Positions 1,966 through 17,396 of a DNA stretch of 64,000 bases are shown piece after piece; position 1 is the first letter of the stretch; each line of letters opens with the position of its first letter. The position numbers were made by a program, and so were the translations under genes. The stretch is from Erythrobacter sp. NAP1 (lineage in GTDB: Bacteria > Pseudomonadota > Alphaproteobacteria > Sphingomonadales > Sphingomonadaceae), in contig NZ_CH672390.1 of NCBI RefSeq assembly GCF_000152865.1, positions 3,017,468 to 3,081,467 on the forward strand, read 5' to 3'. The notes below the pieces were generated by a model. That model did not search any database, had not been told where the DNA came from, and was given only the letters and a program-made list of their open reading frames with translations.

Positions 1966-2829
1966 ATGTTCGCCGCTATCGGTATCATCGTTCTGATCGT
2001 GATGGTCTTTGGCGGCTTCACGCTGGCAGGCGGCGCCTTGGGACCGATCCTTGCCGCGCTTCCGCTTGAGATGATGATGATCGGAGGAGCGGCAATCGGC
2101 GCGGTCCTGATCGGCAACTCGATGCACGAGATCAAGCTGCTCGGCAAAGGAGTGGCGAAGGTCTTTAAGGGGCCCAAATTCACGAACGAAGACCACATCG
2201 ACGCGATTGCGCTCACCAGCAAGCTGATGAAAGTCCTTCGTTCCGATGGAGCGGTTGCGCTTGAAAGCCATGTGACCGATCCGGCCAATTCGGCGATCTT
2301 CAGCGAATATCCGCGCCTTCAGAGCGATCCGGTCGTAGTCGACATGATCTGCGACCCGCTTACGCTGATGGTGGTTTCATCGGGCTCGCTTGACACCCAC
2401 GCAATCGAAGATGTGATCGACAATGCGATCAAGACGCAGCTTCACGAAATGGAAGAGCCAGCGCACACCATTCAATCGCTCGCGGATGCCTTCCCCGCTC
2501 TTGGGATCGTGGCTGCGGTGCTCGGCGTCATCAAGACCATGGGCGCCATCGATCAGCCACCCGAAATCCTAGGCAAGATGATCGGAGCGGCGCTGGTCGG
2601 GACTTTTCTGGGTGTGCTCCTTGCCTACGGGTTTGCCGGACCCATGGCGAGCCGCCTGAAGCAGGTGAATACGCACGACCAGCAGATCTTTCATTCGATC
2701 AAGCAGGTCATCGTCTCAAGCCTGCACGGATATCCGCAGCCGCTCGTTCTGGAAGCAGCGCGCTCCGGCCTGCCGCCTGCACACAGACCCAAGCTCACCG
2801 ATCTGCTCGACACGATGAGAGGGCGTTAG
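1966..2829 (+). CDS. motA: Flagellar motor stator protein MotA
   Basis: MotA is the inner-membrane stator subunit that couples ion flow to rotation by contacting FliG. The 287-residue protein begins with a membrane segment (MFAAIGIIVLIVMVFGGFTL) and has two further hydrophobic pairs in the C-terminal half. The conserved stator motifs FPALGIVAAVLGVIKTMG and GTFLGVLLAYGFAGPMA carry the prolines (equivalents of Pro173 and Pro222 in E. coli MotA) needed for torque generation. A GGAAGG-like ribosome binding site precedes ATG 1966. motB follows after a one-base gap, so the stator pair is co-translated. Confidence 0.95.
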   Translation: MFAAIGIIVLIVMVFGGFTLAGGALGPILAALPLEMMMIGGAAIGAVLIGNSMHEIKLLGKGVAKVFKGPKFTNEDHIDAIALTSKLMKVLRSDGAVALESHVTDPANSAIFSEYPRLQSDPVVVDMICDPLTLMVVSSGSLDTHAIEDVIDNAIKTQLHEMEEPAHTIQSLADAFPALGIVAAVLGVIKTMGAIDQPPEILGKMIGAALVGTFLGVLLAYGFAGPMASRLKQVNTHDQQIFHSIKQVIVSSLHGYPQPLVLEAARSGLPPAHRPKLTDLLDTMRGR

Positions 2830-2830
2830 G

Positions 2831-3790
2831 GTGGCTGACGCTGAGGCACCTGTCCCGCCCGCTCCGATCATCGTCAAGAAGGTGACGATTGCGCAAGGCG
2901 ATGGCCATCATGGCGGCGCGTGGAAGGTTGCCTATGCCGACTTCGTGACGGCAATGATGGCGTTCTTCCTGCTTCTCTGGCTGCTCGGGGCAACCGAAGA
3001 GAACCAACGCCGAGGCATCGCAGACTACTTCGCGCCAACGCTGGTCAAGACACGCCAGCAAAGCGCGGGGGCAGACGGGATGCTGGGTGGCAGTTCGCTG
3101 ACCGACGTCGACAACTACCCCAATGCTCAAGGTCAGACGGGCACGTTGTCGATCACGGTTCCGCGCGGAGCGGAGGGTGGGCCGATGGAAGGCGGCGGGG
3201 ATGGCGATATCGAGACAGAGCGGCTCGACCGATTGCGAGAGCAGATTGACGAGGCCCTCGCTCAGCGACGCCAAATCTCGCACCTGGCACGCCAGGTGAA
3301 GGTGATGCGCGCGCCCGATGGGATTCGTATTGACCTCGTCGATGATGCCGACTTCTCGATGTTCGCACTCGGCACGACGATCCTCACGCAGGACGCGCGC
3401 GGATTGCTTGAGGTGATCGGTGAAGTGTTGGAAGCGCAGCGCACGCCGCTGATCCTCCGTGGCCACACCGATTCGCTCCCCTGGCGAGACGGTATCACGG
3501 CCAACAACTGGTCGCTTTCTGCAGGCCGGGCCGAAGCGACACGGCAAGCCCTGATCGCAAGCGGGCTGGAAGCGAACAGGTTCGCCCGGATTGAAGGCGT
3601 CGCGGATACCGAGCCCTTGATTGCCGACAACCCCGCCGACCCGCGCAACCGGCGTATCTCGCTGCTTTTGCTTGAACAGCAGCGCGGGTCGGGAAGGCGG
3701 CGCGCGCCGCCAGTGAATGCAGCGCAGACCGCATCGCCTGCGCAATCCTCCGTAAGGATAAGCGCCGAGGGCACCGCTCCGCGCTCGTAA
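2831..3790 (+). CDS. motB: Flagellar motor stator protein MotB
   Basis: MotB anchors the stator to peptidoglycan and carries the ion-binding Asp. The 319-residue product starts at a GTG one base after motA. A single membrane helix follows the AYADFVTAMMAFFLLLWLL motif (residues about 35-55); the Asp in YADF is the family's ion-carrying residue. The C-terminal half is an OmpA-like peptidoglycan-binding domain with LRGHTDSLPW and NNWSLSAGRAEATRQALIA, then NRRISLLL. The sequence resembles proton-type MotB, but ion choice cannot be settled by eye. The Ala/Pro-rich tail of about 45 residues after the OmpA domain is a variable extension. Confidence 0.94.
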   Translation: MADAEAPVPPAPIIVKKVTIAQGDGHHGGAWKVAYADFVTAMMAFFLLLWLLGATEENQRRGIADYFAPTLVKTRQQSAGADGMLGGSSLTDVDNYPNAQGQTGTLSITVPRGAEGGPMEGGGDGDIETERLDRLREQIDEALAQRRQISHLARQVKVMRAPDGIRIDLVDDADFSMFALGTTILTQDARGLLEVIGEVLEAQRTPLILRGHTDSLPWRDGITANNWSLSAGRAEATRQALIASGLEANRFARIEGVADTEPLIADNPADPRNRRISLLLLEQQRGSGRRRAPPVNAAQTASPAQSSVRISAEGTAPRS

Positions 3791-3842
3791 ACCATGTTTG
3801 CCTAGCGTTCTTTCCCAACATCCACTGGGAGAGCGCGACGCC

Positions 3843-6278
3843 ATGAACCACACCATTCTGCCGCACGAATTACCCGGCGCTCTCGACCGAGCGCCCGAGG
3901 GCGTCAAAGTACTCTCGCTCGATTGTTTCGATACGCTTTTGTGGCGCGATTGCCATGCACCGACAGACGTGTTCGCCGGTCTCGATGGGCTGAGTGTGGG
4001 GCAGCGGGTGCGCGGAGAGACGCAGGCGCGCAAGCTCAAGGCCATTCGTCAAAGAGGCAGCGAGGTTGCGCTCGGCGAAATCTACGCAGAGGCCATGCCC
4101 AATGCGACCGCAGGTGAGCGCGATGCAGCGATCGCACAGGAGCTCACCTTGGAGGCGCGCACCTGCTTTGCCTTTGCTCCGACAGTAGAGCTGATGCGTC
4201 AGGCCAAATCGCGCGGACTTTCGATCATCATCGTATCCGACACCTATCTCGATGCGAAACAGCTCACCCGGCTCATCGAAGATGCAGCGGGCAAAGAGGT
4301 CGCCGCGATGATAACCCGTGTCTTCGCGTCGAGCGAGGCGGGAGTCTCCAAATCGCAGGGCCTTCTCGCCAAGGCGCTCAAGGCGATGAAAGTGCAAGCG
4401 GGTGAGGTGCTCCATATCGGAGACAACCCGAAGGCGGATTACGAGAGCGCACGCGCGCTTGGCATTCCGGCTCTCCACCTTTCGCAATTCAGCGAGTCGG
4501 CGCGAAGCCGGTTGCGGCTGGAGCGGGCCTGCGGGCAATTCGTCGGCGACACGAATGAAGCTGTGCGCGGATTGATGCCCCAGCGCGCGTTGCTTGCCGA
4601 TCAAGAGCCGCAAGTGAGCGACAAGGCAGAAGCACTCGGCCTCAGCGTCCTTGGCCCTGTCTTTCATGCCTTTGACCAGTGGCTAAGGCAGGAGGCTGAA
4701 ACTCTCGGCTCGAACAGTAAGGGGCGCGTCCATTGGCTCTTCATGCTGCGCGACGGGCACTTGCCGCAGATCGTTCACGCGGCTGGCGAAGAAGCGCCAA
4801 GCACCGCGCGAATCGAGATCAGTCGGTTCACCGCAATCGCCGCCGATCTGACAACGCGCGAGGCCTATGAACGGCAATGGATGCTGGAGGCCGCGCTCAA
4901 CCCGTCGACACTGGCAAGGCAAATGCTGTTCGACGAAAGCGAGATCGCGCGCATTGTCGGTGATCCCAAAGGCGAGAGGGCGAAGGCGGAGGCGAGCCAG
5001 CGCCTGCAGGGCGAGCTGCGAAAAGGGCAGCGACAAAAGCTTACGCGCAGAAGCTCACGTGAACGCGCCGAGCGGCTGATCAACCACGTGCGCCAAGCGG
5101 TCGTTCCGAAGCCGGGCGATGTGCTGATGCTGGTCGATCTTGGCTACAATGGATCGGCTCAGGACCGAATTGATGCTCTGCTGGCGCAGGCGTTCGATTG
5201 CCATGTCGCCGGTCGCTACCTGTTGCTGCGCGAAATGGCTGCGAGCGGGCTCGACAAGAAGGGCCTGATCGACGCGCGCCATTTCGATCCGGAATTGCTC
5301 GAAGCGCTATGCGCCAATGTCGCAGTGCTTGAACAACTGGCCACCTGCGCGACCGGATCAGTGGTCGACTACACGAGCGAGGGTGACCCGATCCGGACGC
5401 AAAATTCGGTGAAGGGAGCGCAAAGCGAGGTGCGTGAGCGAGTGCAGAACGGCGTGGTTCAATACGCCCGCGCCGCCGCCCGCCCGCCGGTTATTCGAGA
5501 GCAAGACCCACACCGAGAGCGAGCCTCGCGCGAAGCGGCGCTCGCGACGCTCATGCGCTTCATGTTCCTTCCGGGCACCGATGAACTCGAAGTGGTCAAG
5601 AGCTTCGAGCATGACGTCAATCTGGGCAGCGAACGCATGGTCGCCCTGTTTGATCAGGCGCACGCCCGCGCAGGGATGAGACGCCGAGGTCTGTTCTACA
5701 TGAAGGGGGCAGAGCGCATGTTCCTGCCCGCAGAACTGGAGGCCGACGACATCCATTCGCGCCTGTCGCTACTCGTGCAGAAACGCTTCGCTCTTGGCCT
5801 TTCCTACACCGATGGCTCTGCGCATTCGATTGCGCTCTCGGCAATCGTGATGAGCGATGGCGACGGGGCGCACACCCGTATCGAGGCGCAAAGAACGCAT
5901 GAAGGCTTTTTCGCGGCAAGAGTGCCCATCCCGGCGGGTGCGAAGGCCGTTGCCCTGGTTGTGGGGTCCGTTTTCGAGTGGTTCGAGCTCGCCGAGATCT
6001 CGCTCAGTCCCATCGCCAGCCTCAAGGGCGAGACGGACATGGATCAGGAGCGCCGCAACCTCGCACCACACTTTGACGGAGCGCGTGAACACGCATCAGG
6101 CATCGTCGAATGCACCAATCCGGGGGCAACATTGGTGGCATTTGTCCCGCCCAAGCTGGATGAAAGGGCACCGCATATGATCGAATTTGTCCTGCGCCCC
6201 CTTTGCACGCGTTCGGCTTCGACCGACGCTCTTCGACCGAACCAAACCACAAACACTATCAAGGATGCCGCCGCATGA
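3843..6278 (+). CDS. Large HAD-superfamily-like protein (COG5610 type), possible flagellin modification factor
   Basis: The 812-residue protein starts at ATG 3843, nine bases after a GGGAGAG ribosome binding site; an in-frame TTG at 3798 is less likely. The first 230 residues form a HAD fold: motif I LDCFDTLLW (Asp27), motif II IIVSDTYLD, a conserved Lys in KSQGLL, and motif IV IGDNPKADY (residues 192-200). Motif I reads D-C-F-D-T, so the third position is Phe instead of the acid/base Asp of HAD phosphatases, as in dehalogenase-like or non-phosphatase members. A middle region carries LVDLGYNGSAQD, which recurs in large HAD proteins of polysaccharide loci, and the last 170 residues look like a beta-rich domain. 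It overlaps the next gene by four bases (ATGA) and lies beside the flagellin gene. Substrate unknown. Confidence 0.7.
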   Translation: MNHTILPHELPGALDRAPEGVKVLSLDCFDTLLWRDCHAPTDVFAGLDGLSVGQRVRGETQARKLKAIRQRGSEVALGEIYAEAMPNATAGERDAAIAQELTLEARTCFAFAPTVELMRQAKSRGLSIIIVSDTYLDAKQLTRLIEDAAGKEVAAMITRVFASSEAGVSKSQGLLAKALKAMKVQAGEVLHIGDNPKADYESARALGIPALHLSQFSESARSRLRLERACGQFVGDTNEAVRGLMPQRALLADQEPQVSDKAEALGLSVLGPVFHAFDQWLRQEAETLGSNSKGRVHWLFMLRDGHLPQIVHAAGEEAPSTARIEISRFTAIAADLTTREAYERQWMLEAALNPSTLARQMLFDESEIARIVGDPKGERAKAEASQRLQGELRKGQRQKLTRRSSRERAERLINHVRQAVVPKPGDVLMLVDLGYNGSAQDRIDALLAQAFDCHVAGRYLLLREMAASGLDKKGLIDARHFDPELLEALCANVAVLEQLATCATGSVVDYTSEGDPIRTQNSVKGAQSEVRERVQNGVVQYARAAARPPVIREQDPHRERASREAALATLMRFMFLPGTDELEVVKSFEHDVNLGSERMVALFDQAHARAGMRRRGLFYMKGAERMFLPAELEADDIHSRLSLLVQKRFALGLSYTDGSAHSIALSAIVMSDGDGAHTRIEAQRTHEGFFAARVPIPAGAKAVALVVGSVFEWFELAEISLSPIASLKGETDMDQERRNLAPHFDGAREHASGIVECTNPGATLVAFVPPKLDERAPHMIEFVLRPLCTRSASTDALRPNQTTNTIKDAAA

Positions 6279-7087
6279 GTGAACTGCTCATCCATTCCAT
6301 GTCCGAGTTTTCGAGTGTGATTCTCCCGTGCCTCGAACAGGCAAAAGCACGCGAGATTGTCGAGATCGGCAGCGAATTCGGCGGCATGTCCAAAGTGCTC
6401 GCCGGGTGGACGGGAGAGCGCGGAGGATCGCTGACCTGCATCGACCCCGAACCAGCTGATGGCTTTGCCAGCTGGACCAATGAACATGCGCACGTCCACC
6501 ACGTCGCGCGACCCAGTCTCGAAGCGCTGGGCGATCACGACGCAGCCGATGCCTGGTTCGTCGACGGCGATCATAACTACTACACCGTCATTCACGAATT
6601 GCAGGCGATCGACCGAATCCAGCGCGAGGCAGGCAGGCCGCTGCTGGCATTCATGCATGACGTCTCCTGGCCGTGCGCAAGGCGCGATTTCTACTATGCC
6701 CCTGACCGGGTACCCCCCGGCTGGCGTCACCCGCACAGCTATGATCACGGCGTGCGCCTCGACGCTGACGAAGTGCTCGCAGGGCGCGGGATGCGCGGGA
6801 TGGGCTCGTTTGCGGTAGCCCTTGAAATCGGGGGGCCGCGCAATGGCGTGCTCACCGCTGTCGAGGACTTCCTTCGCGAAGCCGACACCAAGGAGCGTCC
6901 GCTTTTCTACGTGCATGTTCCTGCGGTCTTCGGGCTCGGGATCATCTTCGATGCATCGGCCAGCTGGTCGACGCCGATCGCAGAATTCCTGCTTCCTTAT
7001 CATGCGAACCCGTTGATCGCCCGGCTCGAGGAAAACCGGCTGCGCAACTGGCTTGAAGTGATCGATTGGCAGGATCGCTGCGCCTGA
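6275..7087 (+). CDS. Class I SAM-dependent methyltransferase-like protein (Methyltransf_24 type)
   Basis: The 270-residue protein shows a Rossmann methyltransferase pattern. A glycine-rich loop VEIGSEFGGMS at residues about 30-40 corresponds to motif I; CIDPEPAD follows as the acidic end of strand 2; and AWFVDGDHNYY matches the 'FIDGDHSYEGV' motif of Methyltransf_24 enzymes, which often act on sugars or small molecules in glycan loci. The downstream MHDVSWPCARRDFYY block is a typical active-site segment of cephalosporin-hydroxylase/glycan-methyltransferase relatives. ATG 6275 overlaps the stop of the HAD-like gene, so the two are almost certainly co-translated. The position next to fliC suggests that it methylates a glycan or residue of the flagellin, but this is inference. 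Confidence 0.65.
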   Translation: MSELLIHSMSEFSSVILPCLEQAKAREIVEIGSEFGGMSKVLAGWTGERGGSLTCIDPEPADGFASWTNEHAHVHHVARPSLEALGDHDAADAWFVDGDHNYYTVIHELQAIDRIQREAGRPLLAFMHDVSWPCARRDFYYAPDRVPPGWRHPHSYDHGVRLDADEVLAGRGMRGMGSFAVALEIGGPRNGVLTAVEDFLREADTKERPLFYVHVPAVFGLGIIFDASASWSTPIAEFLLPYHANPLIARLEENRLRNWLEVIDWQDRCA

Positions 7088-7088
7088 C

Positions 7089-7179
7089 GCGGCGGCCAAA
7101 CAGCCGCTCTCCTTGATCCCGACAACACGAAACCCGGAGCCTTTCGACCCCGGGTCCCTTGTCACTCCCCGCGAAGGGA
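7089..7179. terminator. Convergent intergenic region with three inverted repeats, possible terminators
   Basis: Between the methyltransferase-like gene (plus) and the flagellin gene (minus) there are three short inverted repeats: GCGGC/GCCGC at 7089-7107, ACCCGG/CCGGGT at about 7132-7155, and CTCCC/GGGAG at about 7164-7179. None is followed by a clear run of T on either strand, so intrinsic termination is only a possibility. The location between two convergent genes is what supports the call. Confidence 0.3.
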
Positions 7180-7198
7180 GCGTCTTGGCTCGATGGAC

Positions 7199-8017
7199 TT
7201 ACCGCAGGAGCGAAAGGACGTTCTGCTGCGACTGGTTCGCCTGTGCGAGCATCGCGGTCGACGCCTGTCCCAGGATCTGAGCCTTGGCGAGCGCGGTCGT
7301 CTCGGACGAGTAATCCGCATCCTGAATGCGCGAGCGCGCATCAGTGAGGTTGGTCGCGGTTGTCGTCAGGTTGTTGATCGCCGATTCCAGTCGGTTCTGA
7401 CCGGCACCAAGCGAGGATCGTGCCGAGTTCACATCGGACAGGATGCCATCGACATTGGTGATTGTCGTGCCGGCTTGCGTTGTATCGCTGACATTCAGCC
7501 CGGATGCGCTGATGTTGGTGCCATCGATTGCGGTGCTGGTCAGCGTCACATTACGGCCCGCGTCGATCTGGATATCGACCGTGACGTCGCTGCCGCTGGT
7601 CGTGCTGAACAGGGTCACGCCGTTAAACTCGGTGTTGGAGAGAATATCGGTGATCTGGCCGCGCAGCTCGTCGACTTCCTGGTTCATGAATCCGCGAGCG
7701 TCCGCATCATACGTGCCGCTTGACGATTGCACCGCCAGTTCGCGAATTCGCTGAAGCATGTTGGTGACTTCGTCGAGCGAGCCTTCAGCGGTTTGCGCAA
7801 GTGCAATGCCGTCATTGGCGTTTCGGATACCCTGATTGAGAGCTCGAATGTCGCTGGTGAAACCGGTGGCGATCGAAAGGCCCGCAGCATCGTCAGCTGC
7901 GCCATTGATACGCTGGCCGGTCGAAAGGCGTTCCATCGAAGTGCTCAGCATGTCGTTGGCGCGCATGCTCGCGTTCTGGGCCTTGAGGGCTGAGATATTG
8001 GTGTTGATTACGGACAT
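7199..8017 (-). CDS. fliC: Flagellin (short form)
   Basis: Flagellin polymerises into the filament. The 272-residue product has the full N-terminal D0/D1 signature ([34 protein letters not shown]) and the C-terminal end [12 protein letters not shown], but only a short central segment. It thus lacks the D2/D3 surface domains of the roughly 495-residue Salmonella protein. Residues 88-98 read [11 protein letters not shown], the same register as the TLR5-recognised motif of beta- and gammaproteobacterial flagellins. It is the only flagellin gene visible and is transcribed alone, between the putative modification genes and the flagellar regulator. No flaF or flbT neighbour is present. I could not find a convincing sigma-28 or sigma-54 promoter in the 8018-8282 interval on the minus strand. 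Confidence 0.97.
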
Positions 8018-8207
8018 TGGTCAAACTCCCTTGGGATCTGAGGAAAAGTGGTCACCGCTCAGGCGACACTGCGCCGCCGTTGCTGAGAGGTAGAGCGACC
8101 ATTGAGGCGGGAGTTTAAGGGCCTTTCGTGACTTATCGGGGCAGGCCCCACCGTGTCGGCGATGAACGCTTACGTGCTTTTCAGGATAAGTCCTAAGGGC
8201 AGCAACT

Positions 8208-8223
8208 AGGGCTTAAATTTGCT
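8208..8223 (+). promoter_or_regulatory. Candidate sigma-54 (-24/-12) promoter upstream of the flagellar regulator
   Basis: The sequence AGGGCTTAAATTTGCT has the invariant GG (8209-8210) and GC (8221-8222) ten bases apart and the TTGCT form of the -12 box. The -24 box matches only GG of TGGCACG. It lies 60 bases upstream of the regulator start at 8283 and would place a transcript start near 8234. The match is partial and could be chance. Confidence 0.35.
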
Positions 8224-8282
8224 CTATCTTGGACGTGCGGGCGGCAAATCATTTCCACCAGAACTTGCCGAAGGTGGATAGC

Positions 8283-9611
8283 ATGACAGGCCTGAACACG
8301 AGCGCCGTAACCCCGTTCCCCGTTGAACCGAGTGTTTCGCGCAGCTCAGAATTCGCTCCAGCCCAGGCACCACATGCAGCTTTGCTCGATTCGACATTGC
8401 CGCTCCTTTCTCAGAGCTGGCAAAAGGATCACCTGCTGATTGGCGAGAACGGCAAGTTCGTGCCGCTGAAAGGTGGCAGGCAGGCTGGCGCTCTTGCAAT
8501 CAACCTTGCTCACGCGCCAAGGGCGGCGCTTTGCCGCGCTCAGGCCAGCATAGTCACGCTCGCCTACGACCCTCGTCAAAGCGCGGCCGCTCAACCGGCG
8601 CTTTTGGCGAGCGCCGCTCAGCCGGGCTGGCCCATTGCGGGCGATACCGAGAGCCTGGCGCTGCTGACTCTGGCCGAGCGGATTGCGAAAAGTGCCATTC
8701 CTGTTCTTCTCGAAGGGCCGACCGGGACAGGCAAGGAAGTGATGGCGCGCTTCGTTCACACGATGAGCGAGCGTCGGTCAGGCCCCTTCCTTGCGATCAA
8801 TTGCGCAGCGATGCCCGAAGCAATGCTCGAGGGATTGCTGTTCGGTCATCGCAAGGGCGCTTTCACCGGAGCGGGCGAGGCACGCGAGGGCCTTTTCCGC
8901 GCAGCCGATGGAGGCTCCTTGCTTCTTGACGAGATTGGCGAATTGCCGCTTGCGCTTCAGGCAAAGTTGCTGCGCACCTTGCAGGAGGGCGAAGTTCTGC
9001 CGCTTGGCGCAACGAAGCCCGTCAAAGTCGACGTTCGGATAATCGCCGCCACCAATCGCACACTGTCAGCCGAAGTTGCCAAGGGGCGTTTCCGCGAAGA
9101 CCTGCTTTACCGGCTCAACGTATTTCCGCTTTCCATCCCGGCCTTGCGCGACAGGCGCGGCGATATCGCGCCGCTCGCTTTCGGCATGTTGCTCCGCCAC
9201 GCCTGTCAGCCGGGAAGCCCGACATGGATATCGGGACAAGCCATGGCGCTGCTCGAAGCGCATCCGTGGCCCGGCAATGTGCGCGAATTGGAAAATGTCA
9301 TTCGCCGCGCGATCCTGCTCGCAGGCAAAGAACCGCGCATCGGCAGCGAACACATCGTTTTCGATCTGGCCGCGCGCGCTGCCGAGGCACCGGTGGTAGC
9401 CGCCCCTGTGCCTGTGAGCGGGCCTTCGCCAAGCTCGCTATCGGACGTCGCTTTCCGATCGGAAGCGAAGGCGATCCTGAGTACGCTGCAAACGCATAAT
9501 GGCCACCGGGGCAAGACCGCCCGCAGCCTCGGAATTTCGGAGCGGACCCTGCGGTATAGGCTGGCTTCAATGCGCGAATCCGGGCTGATCGCAGCCGGAG
9601 GTGAGGCATGA
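8283..9611 (+). CDS. Sigma-54-dependent flagellar transcriptional activator without receiver domain (FleQ/FlbD-like)
   Basis: The 442-residue protein is a sigma-54 activator. The AAA+ domain has Walker A GPTGTGKE at residues 145-152, the sigma-54 contact loop GAFTGA at 192-197, Walker B LLLDEIGELP, the sensor AATNR, and the arginine-finger region HPWPGNVRELE. A Fis-type helix-turn-helix lies at the end (GKTARSLGISERTLRYRL). The first 130 residues do not resemble a phosphoreceiver or GAF domain, so activity may be constitutive or controlled by protein partners. Start ATG 8283 follows AGGTGGA; an in-frame TTG at 8229 is an alternative. The stop overlaps fliE (ATGA), so it heads the main flagellar operon and probably switches on sigma-54 flagellar promoters. 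Confidence 0.88.
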   Translation: MTGLNTSAVTPFPVEPSVSRSSEFAPAQAPHAALLDSTLPLLSQSWQKDHLLIGENGKFVPLKGGRQAGALAINLAHAPRAALCRAQASIVTLAYDPRQSAAAQPALLASAAQPGWPIAGDTESLALLTLAERIAKSAIPVLLEGPTGTGKEVMARFVHTMSERRSGPFLAINCAAMPEAMLEGLLFGHRKGAFTGAGEAREGLFRAADGGSLLLDEIGELPLALQAKLLRTLQEGEVLPLGATKPVKVDVRIIAATNRTLSAEVAKGRFREDLLYRLNVFPLSIPALRDRRGDIAPLAFGMLLRHACQPGSPTWISGQAMALLEAHPWPGNVRELENVIRRAILLAGKEPRIGSEHIVFDLAARAAEAPVVAAPVPVSGPSPSSLSDVAFRSEAKAILSTLQTHNGHRGKTARSLGISERTLRYRLASMRESGLIAAGGEA

Positions 9612-9973
9612 GCGGCGTCGGGGGCGCGGGCGGGCCGATGGCTTCGGTCAACCAGATCATGGCACTTCGGCAGGAGGTCCTTGGACGCAGTGAGGCACTT
9701 CAGCAGGTGCGGGCCGCAACCGGGACACAGCCGATCGACGCCGCCCAGCCAGCCAGCAGCTTTGCAAATGCGCTCAATGGCGCGCTTCAGGAAGTCAGCG
9801 CTGTGCAGGCAAAATCGGGCGCGATGCAGGCGGCGTATGAGCGCGGCGAGGTCACCGATATCGCCAAGGTCATGCTGGCTCGTCAGGAAGCAGGCGTCGC
9901 ATTCGAGGCGACGCTCCAGGTGCGCAACAAGCTTTTGTCCGCTTACCAGGACATCATGCGGATGGGGAGCTAG
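9608..9973 (+). CDS. fliE: Flagellar hook-basal body complex protein FliE
   Basis: FliE links the MS ring to the proximal rod and is among the first rod substrates exported. The 121-residue product has the conserved C-terminal helix AYERGEVTDIAKVMLARQEA followed by FEATLQVRNKLLSAYQDIMRM, the standard FliE signature. The first 35 residues are a loose Gly/Ala/Gln-rich N-terminus. It overlaps the regulator gene by four bases and is followed five bases later by fliF. Length is near the usual 100-120. Confidence 0.92.
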   Translation: MSGVGGAGGPMASVNQIMALRQEVLGRSEALQQVRAATGTQPIDAAQPASSFANALNGALQEVSAVQAKSGAMQAAYERGEVTDIAKVMLARQEAGVAFEATLQVRNKLLSAYQDIMRMGS

Positions 9974-9978
9974 CGTAA

Positions 9979-11622
9979 GTGGCAGAGGCAAACCTTCCCG
10001 CTGCGGGCGCTGGCGCGATCCCGCTTGAGCCAGCGCCTTCGTTTGCGGCTGGCGACTGGCGCGAGCGAGCGCGAGCCTTCATGGCGCAGCCAGCATTTCA
10101 GCGCGCCTTGGCGGCACTTGTCGGATTGATCGCTGTCGTGGTTGCCGGTGCGCTTTACTTTGCGATTGCGCAGGGGCCGCAGCGTATCCTGTATTCCGAC
10201 CTCTCCGATGTCGAGCGCGCAAAGGTGGTGCAGGCGCTTGAGACCGGCGGTATCGGCTACGCCATCGACAATTCGACCGGTGCCATAACCGTCGCAGAAA
10301 CCGATCTTTATCGCGCCCGCATGCTGGTTGCGAGCGACACCGGACTTGCCGCGCCAGAAGGGGCGAGCGCGATGCTGGATGCTATCCCGCTCGGATCGAG
10401 CCGAACGCTGGAAGGCGAAAGGCTGAGACTTGCCCGCGAACGCGAATTGATGCTCACCATCCGTGAGATCGACGGGATTGAGAGCGTGCGCGTCCACCTT
10501 GCAACGCCCGAGCGATCGGCCTTCGTGCGCGAGAATAATCCGCCCAGCGCCAGCGTTATGGTGCGCCTTGTTAGCGGTCGCTCGCTTGGCCGGTCGCAGG
10601 TCGAGGCGATCGTCAATCTCGTGTCTGGCTCGGTCCCCGGTTTAACGCCGGACAAGGTTCGCGTGGTCGATCAAAATGGGCGGCTCCTATCGGCTGCGCG
10701 CGAAGAAGCCTTGGGCGGGCTCGTGCTGCAACGCGAGTTCGAAGCCAAGCTGCGCGAGCAACTGGGCACCTTGCTCGCGCCGCTTTTGGGAGAGGGCAAT
10801 TTTTCAAGCCAGGTCCAGGTGGAACTGGAGCAGGAGGAATCGACGTCTGCGCGCGAAAGCTACGATCGCGAGGGCGTCATTCGCAGTGAAAGCGAACGCA
10901 GCGCGACCCGGATGGCAGGAGGTGCGGTCGGAGGGATCCCGGGTGTTGCCGCCAACACCCCGCCGCCCGACGCGCAATTGGTCGATGGTCCGCCTGAGGC
11001 AACCGCCGTCGACGGCGAGCAGGCTGCTGACCGCGATCAGGAGGTCTCGACACAGCGCAATTACGAGCTCGGTCGCGAGGTTGCCGTCACCTCCACCCGG
11101 CCAGGCGGATTGGTGAAGCTTTCGGTGGCGGTCGCGGTAAGCGATGCTGCGCTTGCGGCCGCAGCACCCATGACTGCCGAGCAGCTTCAATCACTTATAA
11201 GTGCCGCTGTTGGCGCTGATGAGGGGCGCGGTGACACAGTAGAGGTTGTCGTGAGTGCATTCGAGAATGCGCAGACCCAGCCGCTCGCTTTCTACGAGCA
11301 GAAATGGTTCGCTGACGTCCTTCGATATGCCACCGCGCTGATTGCCGTGCTCCTGGTTCTGCTTCTCGGCGTTCGACCTTTGGTCAAACGTTTGCGCGAG
11401 CCGTCTGCTGCCGCTGCTGAACTGGCGTCTGACGAAGGCGAGGGAGACGAAACAGCTTACGATCAACAGCAGATCGCCGAAGAGCCTGTCTCGGACGCAT
11501 TCCCGCAGAAGGTGGAACTCGCCCGCCAGCTCGCCGCCAGCCAGCCAGACCGGGCAGTCGAGGCGCTGCAACGCATGCTCGACGTGTCGGCAGAAACAAA
11601 GGCTAAGGCGAGCGCATCATGA
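9979..11622 (+). CDS. fliF: Flagellar MS-ring protein FliF
   Basis: FliF builds the MS ring in the inner membrane, on which switch and export gate assemble. The 547-residue protein has a first membrane helix at about residues 45-65 (ALVGLIAVVVAGALYFAI), the ring-building motifs GPQRILYSDLSD and SVRVHLATPERSAFVRE, and a second membrane helix near residue 450 (YATALIAVLLVLLLGV). The cytoplasmic C-terminal tail that binds FliG ends EVALQRMLDVSAET-like residues. The GTG start is 5 bases after fliE. The stop overlaps fliG by four bases. Length is typical (about 550). Confidence 0.95.
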   Translation: MAEANLPAAGAGAIPLEPAPSFAAGDWRERARAFMAQPAFQRALAALVGLIAVVVAGALYFAIAQGPQRILYSDLSDVERAKVVQALETGGIGYAIDNSTGAITVAETDLYRARMLVASDTGLAAPEGASAMLDAIPLGSSRTLEGERLRLARERELMLTIREIDGIESVRVHLATPERSAFVRENNPPSASVMVRLVSGRSLGRSQVEAIVNLVSGSVPGLTPDKVRVVDQNGRLLSAAREEALGGLVLQREFEAKLREQLGTLLAPLLGEGNFSSQVQVELEQEESTSARESYDREGVIRSESERSATRMAGGAVGGIPGVAANTPPPDAQLVDGPPEATAVDGEQAADRDQEVSTQRNYELGREVAVTSTRPGGLVKLSVAVAVSDAALAAAAPMTAEQLQSLISAAVGADEGRGDTVEVVVSAFENAQTQPLAFYEQKWFADVLRYATALIAVLLVLLLGVRPLVKRLREPSAAAAELASDEGEGDETAYDQQQIAEEPVSDAFPQKVELARQLAASQPDRAVEALQRMLDVSAETKAKASAS

Positions 11623-12662
11623 ACGAGGCGAGCGAAATGCTTGAACAGGCAACTGACACGGCTTTGCCAGAACGGCTTAGCAGGATCGACCGGGTCGCGG
11701 TCTTTCTGATGCTGCTCAGCGATGACGAAGCCGTCGGATTGCTTGCGCGGCTCGGGCCTGACGAACTTGAACGGATCGGCGCTTCGATGTGCGCGCTTGG
11801 CGAGATTGATCAGGGGGCCATGACCGAGGCGCTCGACGATTTCGTATCGGAAAGTTCGCGCGAAGTGATCACCGGACAGGACCGGACCGGCCAGGTGCGT
11901 ACTCTGCTCGAGCGCTCGCTCGGCCCGACCAAGGCGGAAAGCATGATGCTGCGGATCGAGCCCGATGCCCGCCCGCGCACTATCGAAATGGCACGCTGGT
12001 TGGCCCCTTCGGTATTGCTCAAACTGGTCGAAGACGAACACCCGCAGGTGATCGCCGCGCTTCTGCTGTTGCTCGATCCCGAGCCAGCTGCGCAGGTCCT
12101 GTCCGAGCTGCCCGGTCACATTCAACCCGGCGTGGTCGAACGGGTGGCATCGATGGGCAACGTGTCCGCCAAAGCGGTTGCCATGATCGACGAGCTTCTC
12201 TCGCAGCGCATTGGCGCAAGCTTCGGAGCGAGCGCGCTCAGCGTCGGGGGCCCGCGTGAAGCTGCGCAGCTGATCAACCTTGCAGCCGGAGAAGTTCGCG
12301 GCACCGTCCTACCCGCCATCGCCCAGCGCAACGCGCCCTTGGCCGAAAAGATCGAAGAAGAGCTGTTCACGTTCGAAATGCTGTTCGACCTCGAGCCCAA
12401 GGATATGGGTGTGGTGCTGCGCGATGTAGAGAGCGAAGTGCTCATCGATGCGCTCAAGGGCATCAGTGAAGAAGAGCGCGAATTCTTCTTCCGTGCCATG
12501 TCTTCGCGCGCAGCTGACGGCATCCGCGACGAGATCGAGCTGCGCGGACGCCTGACCCGCAGCGAAGTTGACGCAGCACAGCGCAAGGTCGTCGATCTTG
12601 CGCGCAAGCTTGCCGATACGGGTGAGATCATCTTGGGAGGCGATGATGGCGAATTCGTCTGA
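11619..12662 (+). CDS. fliG: Flagellar motor switch protein FliG
   Basis: FliG forms the torque ring that contacts MotA. The 347-residue product has the N-terminal FliF-binding domain (DRVAVFLMLLSDDEAVGLLA), the middle-domain EHPQVIAALLLLLDPEPAAQ helix (EHPQTIA motif of the family), and the C-terminal torque helix region LFDLEPKDMGVVLRDVESE and RAADGIRDEIELRGRL with alternating charges. It overlaps fliF upstream and fliH downstream by about 17 bases. Length and motif order are standard. Confidence 0.95.
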   Translation: MNEASEMLEQATDTALPERLSRIDRVAVFLMLLSDDEAVGLLARLGPDELERIGASMCALGEIDQGAMTEALDDFVSESSREVITGQDRTGQVRTLLERSLGPTKAESMMLRIEPDARPRTIEMARWLAPSVLLKLVEDEHPQVIAALLLLLDPEPAAQVLSELPGHIQPGVVERVASMGNVSAKAVAMIDELLSQRIGASFGASALSVGGPREAAQLINLAAGEVRGTVLPAIAQRNAPLAEKIEEELFTFEMLFDLEPKDMGVVLRDVESEVLIDALKGISEEEREFFFRAMSSRAADGIRDEIELRGRLTRSEVDAAQRKVVDLARKLADTGEIILGGDDGEFV

Positions 12663-13296
12663 CTGGATCGATGCGCTCGAGCAGGTCGATGCGCAAGAAC
12701 AGCCCAGGGTAGACGACTGGATCAGCGCACTCGCTGATTCTGGCGGCTTTGTCGAAGGCCTGCCATCCGCCGGCATATCGTCGCCCGCTCCGCTGACAAC
12801 GCCGCCACCTTCAGAGGGAGAGCCGCAGACCGAGGATACGCCTGATCACATTGCCGAAGCCTTCGAAACCGGCAAAGCAGAGGGAATTGCCGAGGCGCAA
12901 TCCGAGCAAACCAAGATTGAAAGCGCCAGACGCGAACTGCGGCTCACTTTCCAAGCATTTGACGGTGAAGCTACAGACGCGTTCGCGGCGGAACTGGCCG
13001 AAACCGTCATGGCGCTTTGCGAGGCGGCGATTGCAGATTTTCGTGCAGATCCGGAAAGTCTCCTCGCGCGCTGCAAGATCGCTGCTTCACGCTTTGGGGC
13101 AGCTGCGAGCGATTGCAGACTCCATCTCAATCCAGCAGATCTGGAGCTGCTGGGCGATCAGGCGCTTTCAGACTGGGATGTGATCGCGGACCAAAGTGTC
13201 GAACGCTCGGGCCTTCGGTTCGAGGCCCATGATGGCACGATCAGCGACACGCCGACCGATTGGCGACGATCGATCGCTGCCGCGTTGAAGGGGTAG
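12646..13296 (+). CDS. fliH: Flagellar assembly protein FliH
   Basis: FliH is the peripheral stator of the type III export ATPase; it binds and regulates FliI and docks it at FliN. The 216-residue product has an acidic, Pro-rich N-terminus, a central region starting IAEAFETGKAEGIAEAQSEQ that resembles the GxxxG-like coiled-coil of FliH, and a C-terminal FliH/YscL-type domain with DCRLHLNPADLELL and SGLRFEAHDGTISD. ATG 12646 lies five bases after GGAGG inside the fliG end; ATG 12643 is equally possible. Assignment rests on domain pattern and on position between fliG and fliI. Confidence 0.85.
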   Translation: MANSSDWIDALEQVDAQEQPRVDDWISALADSGGFVEGLPSAGISSPAPLTTPPPSEGEPQTEDTPDHIAEAFETGKAEGIAEAQSEQTKIESARRELRLTFQAFDGEATDAFAAELAETVMALCEAAIADFRADPESLLARCKIAASRFGAAASDCRLHLNPADLELLGDQALSDWDVIADQSVERSGLRFEAHDGTISDTPTDWRRSIAAALKG

Positions 13297-13303
13297 GCTT
13301 GTC

Positions 13304-14656
13304 ATGCTCGACACGATGGCCCTCGAACTGGCGCGCTTTCGAGGTGCTGCAATAGAGCGCGGCCCTGTCCCCTCGGGCAGGGTCGTCGCCTGTGATGGAG
13401 GGCTCATTGAAGTTTCGGGTTTAAGCGTGCCGATCGGTTCGCTTGGCGCAATTGAGAGCGACAGCGGCGACGAGCCATTGGCAGAGGTCATTGGCTTTCG
13501 GCGCGGCCATTCGCTGATGATGCTTTTGGGCGATGCGCAATTGCTGCAACCGCGCGCAAGCGTTCGCGCGATCGGTTCGCCGGGCAGCGTGCGTGTGGGA
13601 GATGCGCTTTTGGGCAGAGCCGTCGACGGGTTGGGCCAACCGATTGATGGCGGTCCAGCGATCCACGCTAGCGAAACCTGGCCGCTCTTGGGAAAACGCG
13701 AAAGCGCGCTTGCACGAAGCGGTGTCTCTGAAAGCTTCGATTGCGGAGTTCGGGCCGTCAATGCGCTGGCGACAATGGGTGTAGGCCAGCGCATGGGCAT
13801 TATCGCCGGTTCCGGCGTTGGCAAGTCGGTTTTGATCGACACTGTCGCCGCCAACGCCAAGGCTGATCTTGCCGTCATCGCGCTGATCGGTGAGCGCGCC
13901 CGCGAGGTCTCGGACTTTGTTACCCGGCATATGTCGGGCGCTGAGCGCGGCCGCATGGTGGTGGTGGCTGTGCCTGCAGACCATGCACCGAACCTGCGCC
14001 TTCGCGCCGCTCAGTATGCTAGCGCGATTGCAGAGCACTTTCGCGCGAAAGGCCGGAAAGTCCTGCTTGTTCTCGACAGCCTCACCCGCGTTGCTCATGC
14101 CGCGCGCGAATTGGCGTTGGTCCTGGGCGAGCCGGGAGCGGCGCGCGGCTATCCGCCCAGCGCTCTTTCGACGATCACGCGGCTCGTCGAGCGGGCGGGT
14201 AACTGCGCGACTTCGGGCGGAGCGGTTACGGGGATCTATTCGGTGCTGGCTGACGGGGACGATACGTCCGATCCGGTTGTCGATACAGCGCGAGCGATCC
14301 TCGATGGGCATCTGGTCCTTTCGCGCGAGCTCGCCCAGCGCGGCCATTATCCCGCAATCGATATTCCCGCATCGCTCAGCCGGGTGATGCACGACATTGC
14401 TTCGGCCGAGCAGCTGGAGGCGGCTCGCCGATTGCGCGCCTTGATTGCGGCGCGCGAACACAACCGTGACCTGGTCATGATGGGGGCATATCGCGCTGGA
14501 TCGGACCCCGATCTCGATTGTGCGCTTGCCCATTCGAATGCAATCGACGCGTTCCTACAGCAACCGCGCAACGCTTGCGTCAACATGACCCAAAGCCGTG
14601 CGCAGCTGATGGATATGCTCGCAAAAATCGATGCGCCTCTGGTCGCCAATGCGTGA
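13304..14656 (+). CDS. fliI: Flagellum-specific type III export ATPase FliI
   Basis: FliI is the F1-beta-like ATPase that energises unfolding and delivery of export substrates. The 450-residue protein has Walker A GSGVGKS at residues 169-175, Walker B VLLVLDSLTR, and the T3SS ATPase signature PPSALSTITRLVERAG. It starts seven bases after fliH and overlaps fliJ by eight bases. Length is normal (about 440-460). Confidence 0.96.
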   Translation: MLDTMALELARFRGAAIERGPVPSGRVVACDGGLIEVSGLSVPIGSLGAIESDSGDEPLAEVIGFRRGHSLMMLLGDAQLLQPRASVRAIGSPGSVRVGDALLGRAVDGLGQPIDGGPAIHASETWPLLGKRESALARSGVSESFDCGVRAVNALATMGVGQRMGIIAGSGVGKSVLIDTVAANAKADLAVIALIGERAREVSDFVTRHMSGAERGRMVVVAVPADHAPNLRLRAAQYASAIAEHFRAKGRKVLLVLDSLTRVAHAARELALVLGEPGAARGYPPSALSTITRLVERAGNCATSGGAVTGIYSVLADGDDTSDPVVDTARAILDGHLVLSRELAQRGHYPAIDIPASLSRVMHDIASAEQLEAARRLRALIAAREHNRDLVMMGAYRAGSDPDLDCALAHSNAIDAFLQQPRNACVNMTQSRAQLMDMLAKIDAPLVANA

Positions 14657-15080
14657 ACGTGCCCGCCTGAAGTTTGCTGCACGCCAGTCCCTGCTAGCCA
14701 AAATGGCGCGGCGCGAGGCCATGGCAGGCTTCGCCGATGCAGCGCGCGAAGAATTGCGAAGCGATACGCTGGCAGAGCGCAGCAAACATTTGCTTGCACA
14801 GTACACGGACAAGCCGGGCCATGCCTGCGCGCAAGACCTACGCGACCTTCACGCTTTCGCGCAGTCGCTCGGGATCGTGGCTTCGCAGGCAGAGGAAGCC
14901 CAGCACGATGCGAGCGCGCAGATGCAATGGCATGCTCAAACCCTTGCCGAGGCTTCAGCGCGCGCAGACGCGGCTGATGACCGGCTCCTGAGTGCGAGAC
15001 GCGCACTGTCAGTGGCGCTCGAGAGGCGCGAGGAAGAAACGCCCCGGCGTGTGGCACGCAAGTTGCAGACTGACGAGTAG
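14649..15080 (+). CDS. fliJ: Flagellar export protein FliJ
   Basis: FliJ is the small coiled-coil stalk that sits in the FliI hexamer and recycles export chaperones. The 143-residue product is almost entirely helical and rich in Arg, Ala, Gln and Glu, with no Pro in the central part, as expected for an antiparallel coiled coil. Sequence identity within the family is very low, so the call rests on size, composition and the position directly after fliI (overlap of eight bases). ATG 14649 was preferred to ATG 14631 because the latter would extend further into fliI. Confidence 0.8.
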   Translation: MRERARLKFAARQSLLAKMARREAMAGFADAAREELRSDTLAERSKHLLAQYTDKPGHACAQDLRDLHAFAQSLGIVASQAEEAQHDASAQMQWHAQTLAEASARADAADDRLLSARRALSVALERREEETPRRVARKLQTDE

Positions 15081-15124
15081 GAAGCCGAGCAACAAGGCGC
15101 GGCACGAGAACTCGGGAATTGCGC

Positions 15125-16783
15125 GTGATCGACCTCAACTTTCGCCTGCTCGCTGGAAGCGCGAATTACTCTGTCCAACCAGAACCCACTTTGCCCGGTG
15201 ATTTGGGCGCAGAAATCGTTGCGAAAGAGGGGTTTAGCGAGGTGCTCGAAGGGGCCCTTGCGCCGCTTGAGGAAGCTTCCGGCGACTGGGTGAGCGCGGG
15301 AACTCCAGCCCTTCCAGCGCCAATTCAAGACCCCGGCAATTTCATGCCGACAGCCGGAAAAACATTGCCTGATCGACCGGGTCAGGCTGCTGGCGAGTTG
15401 GAACCGCAAGCCGCCGCGACGATCCGGTCGGCGACTAATCCCGCTCCCGTCGCATCAGGTCTTATCCGTTCGTCAGAACACGGCATCGAGGCTGAAATGG
15501 CAACCCCGAACCTGCCGCCCGAGAGCGATGTAGCGCAAGGCGAGGCCGAACCGACCGCGGCTGGCTTCAAGCGAACTGCTCCAGCAACTCGTCAGTCACC
15601 GCTGCCTGCCGATCCGGCTGGTGGACGTGAATCTGGGCAGGCAATGCTTGATCGAAAGGAGCTTCCAACGAGCTCCGGCCCTCCGCTGCGCGTTCAAGAC
15701 AATCCGACCATTGAGCCCGAGCAGGTCGACGCGGAACCAAGACTGGCGATGCAGCTACCGCAGCCTGTGCCAATCATGGGTTCTACGAAAACGTTCGAAG
15801 AGGCCGACCAACAACAACCCCGCCGACCAACTCCAGCGCCGCCTCTCGCTCAGGAACGTTCGCAGCCTGCCGAGCCACGCCCCCTCCTTACTGTGCCTCA
15901 GCCCGTGGTTGCCACGCTCGCCGGAGGCGGATCACTGCCAGCTCCTCCGCAAGAGACCGCGCCGCCCAAAAAGACGCCCAGCCAGCGCCACTTTCGAGCA
16001 GAGTCAGTGCCAATTACGGATGCGGCACCGCCGCGCGCGGACAGTCGCCCGGTTGAAAAACCCGCATCAGAGGCGGCGTCCATTTTCAATGCAAAGGGCC
16101 CAGCTGAGCCGACTCCGGCCAAGCTATCTCAGAGCGTCTTGGGCGAATCCGCCGGTTCGCCCTCGCCTACTTCCACATCCTCTGGCATTTCATCAGTTCA
16201 ACAGCCGCTGGCGCAGGCTCAATCCCCATTGCAGGCTCTGGCCCAGGTCCCGGTTGCCGGGCCGCAAGCGGCCAGCGACATTCGCTCCGAAAGCCGTCCC
16301 GCGACCGCCCTTGAAAGCGTGATCGATCATCTCGCCGAAACCCGCGAAACCGGTCGTACGGCAAAGTCCCACGTTACGCTTCGCCATCATGACTTTGGCG
16401 CCATCAATGTGCGGCTCGAAGCAACCGGGTTCGACCTTCGCGCGACCTTGTCGGCACGTGATCCGGGATTTGTCATCGCCGCTCAATCAGCTTTGGCCGA
16501 CAGAGCCATCGTGGCCGCTGGCGAGGGCACCGCAACTCAATCTCAACGCGGGCACGAACATTCGCCCGGCCAGCAAGGCCAGCCGGGTCAGAACTCGCAT
16601 TCCGGACAACCCGGCGCGCACGGTGAGCCACGATACGGGTCATTCCTTGGGTCAGGGCAAGGCTCCCCTCAACCATACTCGGCGCAAATCATGGACAGCG
16701 ATGAAGAGGCTGATCTGATGCCTGCACCTCCCACGCAAGAAAGCGGCGGCGGTTCAGCGCACGACAGCGACCTGTTCGCGTGA
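15125..16783 (+). CDS. fliK: Flagellar hook-length control protein FliK
   Basis: FliK measures hook length and switches the export gate to filament substrates. The roughly 552-residue product has a long, Pro/Ala/Gln-rich, low-complexity N-terminal ruler (residues 1-390) and a short folded C-terminal Flg_hook domain (about 400-465) with SHVTLRHHDFGAINVRLEAT and LRATLSARDPGF. A final Gly/Gln/His-rich tail follows. The start is GTG 15125 or the in-frame TTG 15119; no clear ribosome binding site decides. Position between fliJ and fliL supports the name. Confidence 0.85.
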   Translation: MIDLNFRLLAGSANYSVQPEPTLPGDLGAEIVAKEGFSEVLEGALAPLEEASGDWVSAGTPALPAPIQDPGNFMPTAGKTLPDRPGQAAGELEPQAAATIRSATNPAPVASGLIRSSEHGIEAEMATPNLPPESDVAQGEAEPTAAGFKRTAPATRQSPLPADPAGGRESGQAMLDRKELPTSSGPPLRVQDNPTIEPEQVDAEPRLAMQLPQPVPIMGSTKTFEEADQQQPRRPTPAPPLAQERSQPAEPRPLLTVPQPVVATLAGGGSLPAPPQETAPPKKTPSQRHFRAESVPITDAAPPRADSRPVEKPASEAASIFNAKGPAEPTPAKLSQSVLGESAGSPSPTSTSSGISSVQQPLAQAQSPLQALAQVPVAGPQAASDIRSESRPATALESVIDHLAETRETGRTAKSHVTLRHHDFGAINVRLEATGFDLRATLSARDPGFVIAAQSALADRAIVAAGEGTATQSQRGHEHSPGQQGQPGQNSHSGQPGAHGEPRYGSFLGSGQGSPQPYSAQIMDSDEEADLMPAPPTQESGGGSAHDSDLFA

Positions 16784-16817
16784 GTGAAGCGTGATGCGCA
16801 AGAGGATCTGATCGAGC

Positions 16818-17396
16818 ATGGCAAGCGACAAGGATGACGAGACCGACAAGAAATCGGGCAAGGGGCTGATGAAGATAGCTCTTGGCGGCGTCTTCCTGCT
16901 CGTGGCGGGTGCTGGCGGCGCTTATGCTGCGGTAGCGTCGGGCGCTTTTGGCGATAGCGGGGCAGGTGGTCCCGATCTTCCCGAATATGTCCGCAAGGGT
17001 GACAGCGACCCCTACGCCTTGCCAAGCAGCGACAAGGGCGACGAGACAAGCATCGTCTATGGCGATGGCGGTAGCGAATATCGCACCGCTTACTACAGCT
17101 TTGACGACAGCTTCACCGCCAATCTCGCAGATTCTCCGGCGCTTATCCAGGTAGAGCTCGCCGTATCGACCCGCCGAGATGGACGCGTGCTGCAGTGGGT
17201 GCAGGCGCATGAGCTGGCGCTGCGTTCAGCGATCCTCGGGCAACTGGCCGCGACATCCGAAAGCGAGATCTATTCGGTTGAAGGAAAAGATGCGCTTGCC
17301 GTTCGGCTTACAGAGGCGGTCAACGATGTGCTCGAAGAAAACGAGGGCTTCGGCGGGGTGGATGCAGTCCATTTCAAGGGGATCCTCGTCCAGTGA
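16818..17396 (+). CDS. fliL: Flagellar basal body-associated protein FliL
   Basis: FliL surrounds the stator and helps motor function under load. The 192-residue protein has a charged cytoplasmic N-terminus, one membrane helix (residues about 18-40, MKIALGGVFLLVAGAGGAYA) and a periplasmic domain with the family pattern YYSFDDSFTANLADS, VELAVSTRRD and a C-terminal GGVDAVHFKGILVQ. The last motif matches the FliL ending in which a strand near 'V..VLFT.F.VQ' closes the stomatin-like fold. Overlaps fliM by four bases (GTGA). Confidence 0.9.
   Translation: MASDKDDETDKKSGKGLMKIALGGVFLLVAGAGGAYAAVASGAFGDSGAGGPDLPEYVRKGDSDPYALPSSDKGDETSIVYGDGGSEYRTAYYSFDDSFTANLADSPALIQVELAVSTRRDGRVLQWVQAHELALRSAILGQLAATSESEIYSVEGKDALAVRLTEAVNDVLEENEGFGGVDAVHFKGILVQ

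Follow-up and report, generated by a model that had tools for sequence, protein, structure and literature searches.

In the window, a 64,000-nucleotide stretch of the 3.27-Mb genome of Erythrobacter sp. NAP1 (nearest named relatives in our genome scan: Erythrobacter), two overlapping genes lie between motB and the flagellin gene fliC. The product of the first gene very probably belongs to the class of ribofuranosyltransferases that join a HAD phosphatase to a gPRT domain, and the second gene encodes a predicted O-methyltransferase. Both the HAD-gPRT enzyme class and the link to flagella are well supported. We favor, as a fairly probable account, a chain in which flagellin or its sugar is ribofuranosylated from phosphoribosyl pyrophosphate (PRPP), dephosphorylated, and O-methylated. 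The pair would represent an enzyme type already described, acting in a role that we did not find in print in the open-license literature; the original prediction, a model's reading of the DNA, had proposed an undescribed system, which holds for the role but not for the enzyme. We compared the large protein with Bcs3 of Haemophilus influenzae type b (Hib; PDB codes 8A0C and 8A0M), composed of the phosphatase CrpP and the transferase CriT, and with a ribofuranosyl transferase of Thermobacillus composti (PDB code 7SHG). The features of the pair are as follows.

3843–6278, plus strand: gene 1, HAD phosphatase, gPRT transferase, and C-terminal β-domain (ATG start, 811 amino acids)
3897–4517, plus strand: HAD (PRP/CrpP-like phosphatase) domain, residues ∼19–225, from PF00702 and the Bcs3 and 7SHG alignments
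3921–3935, plus strand: HAD motif I, D27-C-F-D-T31, with Asp-27 as presumed nucleophile; invariant in 63/63 homologues; D-I-F-D-T in Bcs3
4518–5762, plus strand: gPRT (CriT-like phosphoribosyltransferase) region, residues ∼226–640, from the Bcs3 and 7SHG alignments (8a0c aligned up to model residue 639)
4749–4754, plus strand: R303-D304, counterpart of R679-D680 in Bcs3; invariant in 63/63
4821–4826, plus strand: S327-R328, counterpart of S707-R708 in Bcs3; invariant in 63/63
5136–5162, plus strand: loop D432-L-G-Y-N-G-S-A-Q440, with Asp-432 as counterpart of Glu-818 in Bcs3; VDVGWKGTIQ in 7SHG
5805–6212, plus strand: C-terminal β-domain, residues ∼655–790, with strands in the model; the least conserved part
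6275–7087, plus strand: gene 2, predicted class I S-adenosylmethionine-dependent O-methyltransferase (ATG start, 270 amino acids)
6560–6583, plus strand: VDGDHNYY motif, residues 96–103; Asp-97, Gly-98, Asp-99, His-100, and Asn-101 invariant in 36/36 homologues

The N-terminal part of the large protein matches the Pfam HAD family PF00702 (residues 22–207, E = 5.7e-9). As in PRP-gPRT enzymes, it keeps the first aspartate of motif I together with motifs II–IV, and Asp-27, Ser-132, Lys-170, Asp-194, and Asp-199 are invariant in all 63 homologues. The original prediction had correctly read motif I as D-C-F-D-T and contrasted it with the DxD of phosphatases. We rejected this deviation as an argument against phosphatase activity, because CrpP, the phosphatase of Bcs3, also retains only the first aspartate of the DxD (PMC10299916). 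Judged from its sequence, DCFDT is normal for a Bcs3-type phosphatase, and the large protein is no orphan HAD.

The middle region corresponds to CriT, which resembles phosphoribosyltransferases, uses PRPP, and has Asp-680 and Glu-818 instead of the DD pair (PMC10299916). Equivalents of both acidic residues are present as Asp-304 and Asp-432 in 63/63 homologues. In the loop around Asp-432, Gly-434, Tyr-435, Gly-437, a serine or threonine, and Gln-440 are likewise invariant in this set. The S327-R328 pair is replaced by R-K in rhizobial homologues and by N-R in two genomes, G392 and G218. Glu-497 aligns with a glutamate of 7SHG and may act as the base in acceptor activation.

Profile searches and structural models place the whole protein in the same class. 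With the single sequence, a PDB search returned a weak match of the HAD part to 7SHG (E = 0.0058), whereas a profile of the 63 homologues matched 7SHG with E = 2.6e-20 (HAD stretch, 4e-10; phosphoribosyltransferase-like gPRT stretch that follows it, 3.8e-7) and Bcs3 with E = 7.4e-18 across both domains. In an AlphaFold model (mean predicted local distance difference test (pLDDT) 91.1; predicted template modeling score 0.89), the large middle region and the β-rich end named in the original prediction are both visible; the predicted gene coordinates also stand, but the protein has 811 and not 812 residues. The top eight Foldseek matches of this model are chains of Bcs3 and 7SHG. Structural alignment with VIA gave 8a0c (Z 24.3, root mean square deviation (rmsd) 7.1, 575 residues aligned, model residues 19–639) and 7shg (Z 23.4, rmsd 12.9, 505 residues aligned), followed by plain HADs (Z 15.4 over ∼185 residues); absence of a family from the VIA list does not exclude any GT-type or phosphoribosyltransferase family. 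The high rmsd values probably reflect domain placement.

Profile and model thereby point to a transferase part such as the original prediction had suspected within the HAD-like protein, but the comparison with glycosyltransferase folds proposed at the time leads, for the model of the whole protein, to a phosphoribosyltransferase-like gPRT. We rejected a GT-A or GT-B fold for the middle region, because gPRT enzymes lead the structural matches of the complete model, and took a phmmer similarity to Utp24 (E = 0.088 at best) as chance. A gPRT transferase would explain the lack of sugar-nucleotide genes. The C-terminal β-domain (mean column identity 39%, three invariant columns in 46 sequences) perhaps binds the acceptor.

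The product of gene 2 carries the predicted VDGDHNYY motif of Methyltransf_24 and matches this family (PF13578, E = 1.6e-8, 35.8 bits, cut-off 26.3); the HD motif at residues 128–129 is also invariant in 36/36 homologues. Its model (pLDDT 92.3) shows a class I fold, and the nearest VIA matches are O-methyltransferases (8c9v, Z 15.2, rmsd 2.8, 164 residues aligned), with the best 50 matches reaching down to Z 13.3 and consisting mostly of COMT and CCoAOMT types. By E-value, Foldseek placed a glycine N-methyltransferase first (3.7e-6). The protein thus shares the class I fold and the DGDH and HD motifs with COMT-like and Methyltransf_24 enzymes but differs from them in lacking a close relative by sequence among solved structures: a profile search of solved structures found none below E = 0.05. 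Matches of this profile to pyrroline-5-carboxylate reductase (E = 0.071) were taken as chance. From the model, we predict a COMT-like O-methyltransferase that transfers to a hydroxyl group, in a reaction that would be metal-dependent.

The gene pair lies on the strand of flgK-flgL-motA-motB, and fliC is convergent and downstream. Open reading frames and Pfam matches of these neighbors agree with the predicted position between motB and fliC.

1966–3790, plus strand: motA and motB, upstream of the pair on the same strand; gene 1 starts 52 bp after motB
7199–8017, minus strand: fliC, flagellin of 272 amino acids (PF00669 and PF00700); the presumed acceptor, from gene order
7586–7606, minus strand: FliC residues 138–144, STTSGSD, a Ser/Thr-rich loop and possible attachment site

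This arrangement is conserved within the genus. A search of 61 relatives gave 10 matches at E ≤ 0.001, all from the same genus: eight near full length (counting our own), one truncated by a contig edge, and one weak HAD-only match in G007 (31%) that has no flagellar neighbor and was excluded, leaving nine of the 10 as gene-bearing congeners. In all eight near-full-length cases, the gene lies between motB and fliC, and the contig-edge copy follows motB; the methyltransferase was found in seven of the genus matches. A Flagellin_N match (FlgL-like ones included) was obtained in 26 of 37 genus genomes, and the gene occurs in 9 of these 26 versus 0 of the other 11 (Fisher p = 0.036, some genomes being incomplete and kinship uncorrected). 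In 8 of 15 flagellate congeners without the pair, the motB-fliC or fliC-adjacent slot (10 proteins of eight loci, chosen by a crude open-reading-frame rule) holds an Na/H exchanger, Sel1, PAP2 (below cut-off), an ABC ATPase, MscS, a TPR regulator, an unrelated methyltransferase, or proteins of no family. The methyltransferase is of the Methyltransf_11 type and adjoins fliC in G022 (L132:7428-8156).

Beyond the genus, a genome scan yielded 241 relatives, of which the best 80 were kept. Among these 80 loci, which are mostly from Sphingomonadales and not independent of the genus survey (L038, L043, and L044 overlap), 60 adjoin flagellar or motA-chemotaxis genes, and 22 of the 60 lie beside fliC. 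In 21 loci the gene is located between motB and fliC (one contig stops before fliC), and in two beside fliC and flgH. The contexts of the 80 loci require nine changes on the tree. A Flagellin_N match was also obtained in each of the 47 genomes to which 50 of the 80 loci belong.

We also drew two genome sets blind to flagella, 398 genomes of the phylum (E ≤ 1e-40) and 385 of the class. In the phylum draw, eight genomes matched at this threshold, and seven of them show flagellar linkage: our own, the congener G019, G186 (motB-pair-fliC), G281 (fliC-fliD-fliS), G290 (two fliC-like genes and flbD), and G392 and G218 of one genus (fliC, fliD, and flgK). The class draw gave four matches and a single new genome, G535. 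Together, seven of nine genomes are linked, or five of seven when our own and the congener are left out, and G281 and G290 belong to classes other than that of the source. Because a flagellar cluster makes up ∼1% of a genome (our own order-of-magnitude estimate), this is far above chance. Homologues mostly distant from flagellar genes, the finding named beforehand as refuting, are therefore not what is seen (60/80 and 7/9). Such recurrent linkage in unrelated genomes is expected of flagellin-modification genes and, with the gPRT identity of the large protein, supports the predicted flagellin-modification module beside fliC.

On a plasmid of the gammaproteobacterium Aquicella lusitana, a homologue (31.6% identity, 98% covered) adjoins fliK-fliC-fliD-fliS and annotated methyltransferases. 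The island of G290 (L163, G290:C1:47000-66900; 3053-17113) combines the gPRT homologue with two fliC-like genes, an IspD-SDR fusion, LicD, Polysacc_synt_2, and DegT. The fusion scores above the cut-off of the ispD model, and 165.2 versus 166 for the D-ribitol-5-phosphate cytidylyltransferase model; Bcs1 of Hib is presumably also an IspD-SDR fusion. Bcs1 yields CDP-ribitol through reduction with NADPH and activation with CTP, according to the available part of PMC10299916. The IspD-SDR and LicD neighbors are as expected for ribose/ribitol chemistry, and the island perhaps serves to decorate flagellin with ribose-ribitol-phosphate in the manner of Hib. Another neighbor of the G290 gene, a protein assigned to no family, had no match in the genome of the window in a search without positive control.

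The two genes of the pair also belong together. They share the four-base overlap originally noted (ATGA, common to 3843–6278 and 6275–7087), which recurs in 6/6 other congeneric pairs. The methyltransferase is present in 46 of the 80 loci, 40 of which have exactly the 4-bp overlap, and the pairing is therefore more than chance. It accompanies 45 of 60 flagella-linked but only 1 of 20 solitary loci (Fisher p = 2.5e-8, kinship uncorrected). Because no methyltransferase was matched in the remaining 15 linked loci, we regard it as an optional partner.

The flagellins next to the gene share a feature of their own. FliC identity to that of the window is 75–94% in the seven other genomes with near-full-length pairs, versus 50–65% in all but one of the 15 flagellate congeners that lack the gene and 76% in the exception, G027. 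A longer Ser/Thr/Gly loop is found in 28/28 flagellins beside the gene (25 distinct), in 1 of 15 gene-less congeners by motif or 2 of 15 by length (G027 included), and in none of 20 flagellins that belong to other families. This association of gene and loop is only a hint, as it depends on descent and needs only three changes on the tree (sign test, p = 0.5). G027 (L131, G027:C1:1610000-1620000) thus has a pair-type flagellin with the loop STTAGTD and no gPRT gene; perhaps it lost the gene recently and could serve as a natural control.

Taken together, flagellin or its glycan is the likely target of the pair. In the chain that we favor, the gPRT part would move 5-phospho-ribofuranose from PRPP onto flagellin, or onto a sugar already on it, in the cytoplasm. 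The HAD part would then strip the 5-phosphate, and the O-methyltransferase would, as an optional step, methylate the added sugar or a nearby hydroxyl. The modified flagellin would be exported after these cytoplasmic steps. The analysis shows the gene structure, the kept overlap, the homology and fold of the HAD and gPRT domains, the invariance of the main catalytic residues, and flagellar linkage across distant lineages; PRPP as donor, ribofuranose as product, flagellin as acceptor, the sequence of reactions, and the methylated position are inferred. A narrower version makes PRPP the direct donor for protein glycosylation, with transfer by the gPRT part to Ser/Thr of flagellin (perhaps in STTSGSD), dephosphorylation by the HAD part, and capping of the ribose by the methyltransferase. 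We hold this version only tentatively and give it somewhat less than an even chance; if true, it would constitute two-gene flagellin glycosylation without a sugar-nucleotide pathway.

Several observations weigh against a ribofuranosylation of flagellin. In the available part of PMC11127046, the described gPRT family members act on sugar acceptors and not on protein. Pocket residue Ser-678 of Bcs3 is Leu/Met at position 302 here, and Arg-712 has no basic counterpart near Ile-332. Among flagellate congeners, 17 of 26 lack the gene, which is therefore not needed for flagella. Of the 60 linked loci, 37 adjoin motA and chemotaxis genes, with no fliC in the examined DNA, and 20 of the 80 loci have no recognized flagellar gene; four of these 20 are on contigs under 11 kb. 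G386 from the phylum draw and G535 from the class draw likewise lack a recognized flagellar neighbor. Around rhizobial plasmid homologues (27–28%), an incomplete gene table lists no flagellar gene within 9 kb, and a distant homologue on a Pseudomonas plasmid (24% over 65%) is located in a polysaccharide cluster.

The sugar acceptors of the known family members (PMC11127046, available part) would also fit a glycan extension, in which another enzyme attaches a nonulosonic acid to flagellin, the gPRT part adds ribofuranose to that sugar, and the methyltransferase methylates. Given the NeuB-type genes of the genome, such a ribosylated nonulosonate glycan deserves to be taken seriously as a rival; we consider it unlikely. 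Polysacc_synt_2 and DegT stand beside the gPRT and fliC-like genes in the G290 island, and one of two NeuB genes in the genome of the window is clustered with Polysacc_synt_2, DegT, cytidylyltransferase, and flippase-like genes, the other with Wzz and O-antigen-ligase genes. However, both loci are distant from the window, and their flippase, Wzz, or O-antigen-ligase genes suggest a surface polysaccharide. The Maf profile PF01973 had no match in this genome, in a search that may miss bacterial Maf, as only four archaea of 14 controls gave a match. The NeuB loci are as follows.

L140 (G000:C1:358000-374000)
L141 (G000:C1:2601000-2617000)

A different phosphosugar donor, or a methyltransferase that acts on side chains of flagellin such as lysine, so that the product is not a methyl-ribose, appears improbable. 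The two deviating residues of the PRPP pocket (Ser-678 and Arg-712 in Bcs3) allow for another donor, but the aspartate pair and the loop VDxGYxGxxQ, close to VDVGWKGTIQ of 7SHG, are kept. Flagellin lysine methylation is known in Shewanella (PMC3765264, available part), and the distant position of the methyltransferase from solved structures and its first Foldseek hit leave room for an N-methyltransferase; VIA, however, places it nearest to O-methyltransferases, and it is almost exclusive to flagella-linked gPRT genes, which it mostly overlaps. That the two genes contribute to a surface polysaccharide or other envelope glycan and adjoin fliC by accident of lineage, as the capsule and O-antigen products of Bcs3 and other described members (PMC10299916, PMC11231755, and PMC11127046, as far as available), the Pseudomonas homologue, and the solitary gPRT copies might suggest, is very improbable in view of flagellar linkage that recurs in varied arrangements and other classes, the Flagellin_N matches in 47/47 genomes, and the absence of any glycosyltransferase family among 20 neighbors at 11 of 20 solitary loci.

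Those 20 neighbors include three HD-GYP-like proteins and one GH130. HD-GYP-like proteins (DUF3391 and HD_5) are encoded upstream of the solitary gPRT copies in L091, L100, and L102, and the G386 copy adjoins a GGDEF protein (L164:7376-9136); a link to cyclic di-GMP is possible.

Flagellin modification systems such as FlmG are already known. In the accessible portions of the literature on Maf, FlmG, and Sfm, we found no PRPP-dependent enzyme described with these systems. By the same portions, Maf acts by cytoplasmic flagellin glycosylation before export, like the proposed module, and Shewanella Sfm resembles it in an O-methylated flagellin glycan (PMC3765264), but nonulosonic acids are involved in both. 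Searches of the open-license literature gave no work linking gPRT or ribofuranose with flagellin, as far as titles, abstract starts, and term counts go. In the available parts, the enzymes combining gPRT and PRP are cytoplasmic and put β-ribofuranose on acceptor sugars (PMC11127046), and stand-alone two-domain PRP-gPRT members are described (PMC11231755). Bcs3 shares with the large protein the order of HAD phosphatase and phosphoribosyltransferase-like ribofuranosyltransferase, the lone first aspartate in motif I, and the acidic pair (Asp-680/Glu-818 = Asp-304/Asp-432), but it carries a ribitol-phosphate transferase in addition and produces capsule. Gene 1, in contrast, encodes a C-terminal β-domain, has a methyltransferase partner, lies beside fliC, and does not keep Ser-678 and Arg-712. 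7SHG and the stand-alone O-antigen enzymes also have a HAD followed by a gPRT, and 7SHG has the loop VDxG[WY]xGTxQ and the glutamate aligned with Glu-497. They differ by low identity (17% in structural alignments), by being described for polysaccharide, and, as far as the sources are available, by having no coupled methyltransferase.

If our reading is true, PRPP-dependent ribofuranosyltransferases, linked to polysaccharides in the available parts of PMC11127046, PMC10299916, and PMC11231755, would reach flagellin and protein glycosylation, and ribofuranose, probably O-methylated, would join the flagellin sugars. In Sphingomonadales and other groups, proteins that are encoded next to flagellar genes and annotated merely as “HAD family hydrolase” would gain a function. 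With a universal metabolite as donor, as few as two genes might be enough for decorating flagellin, a prospect that would be useful for glycoengineering. The modification may also matter for plant-associated Sphingomonas, whose flagellin is perceived by plant immunity (PMC13015449, available part).

Reverse-transcriptase genes are located near two distant flagellin-linked homologues (L162:11861-12460 and L029:20849-22102).

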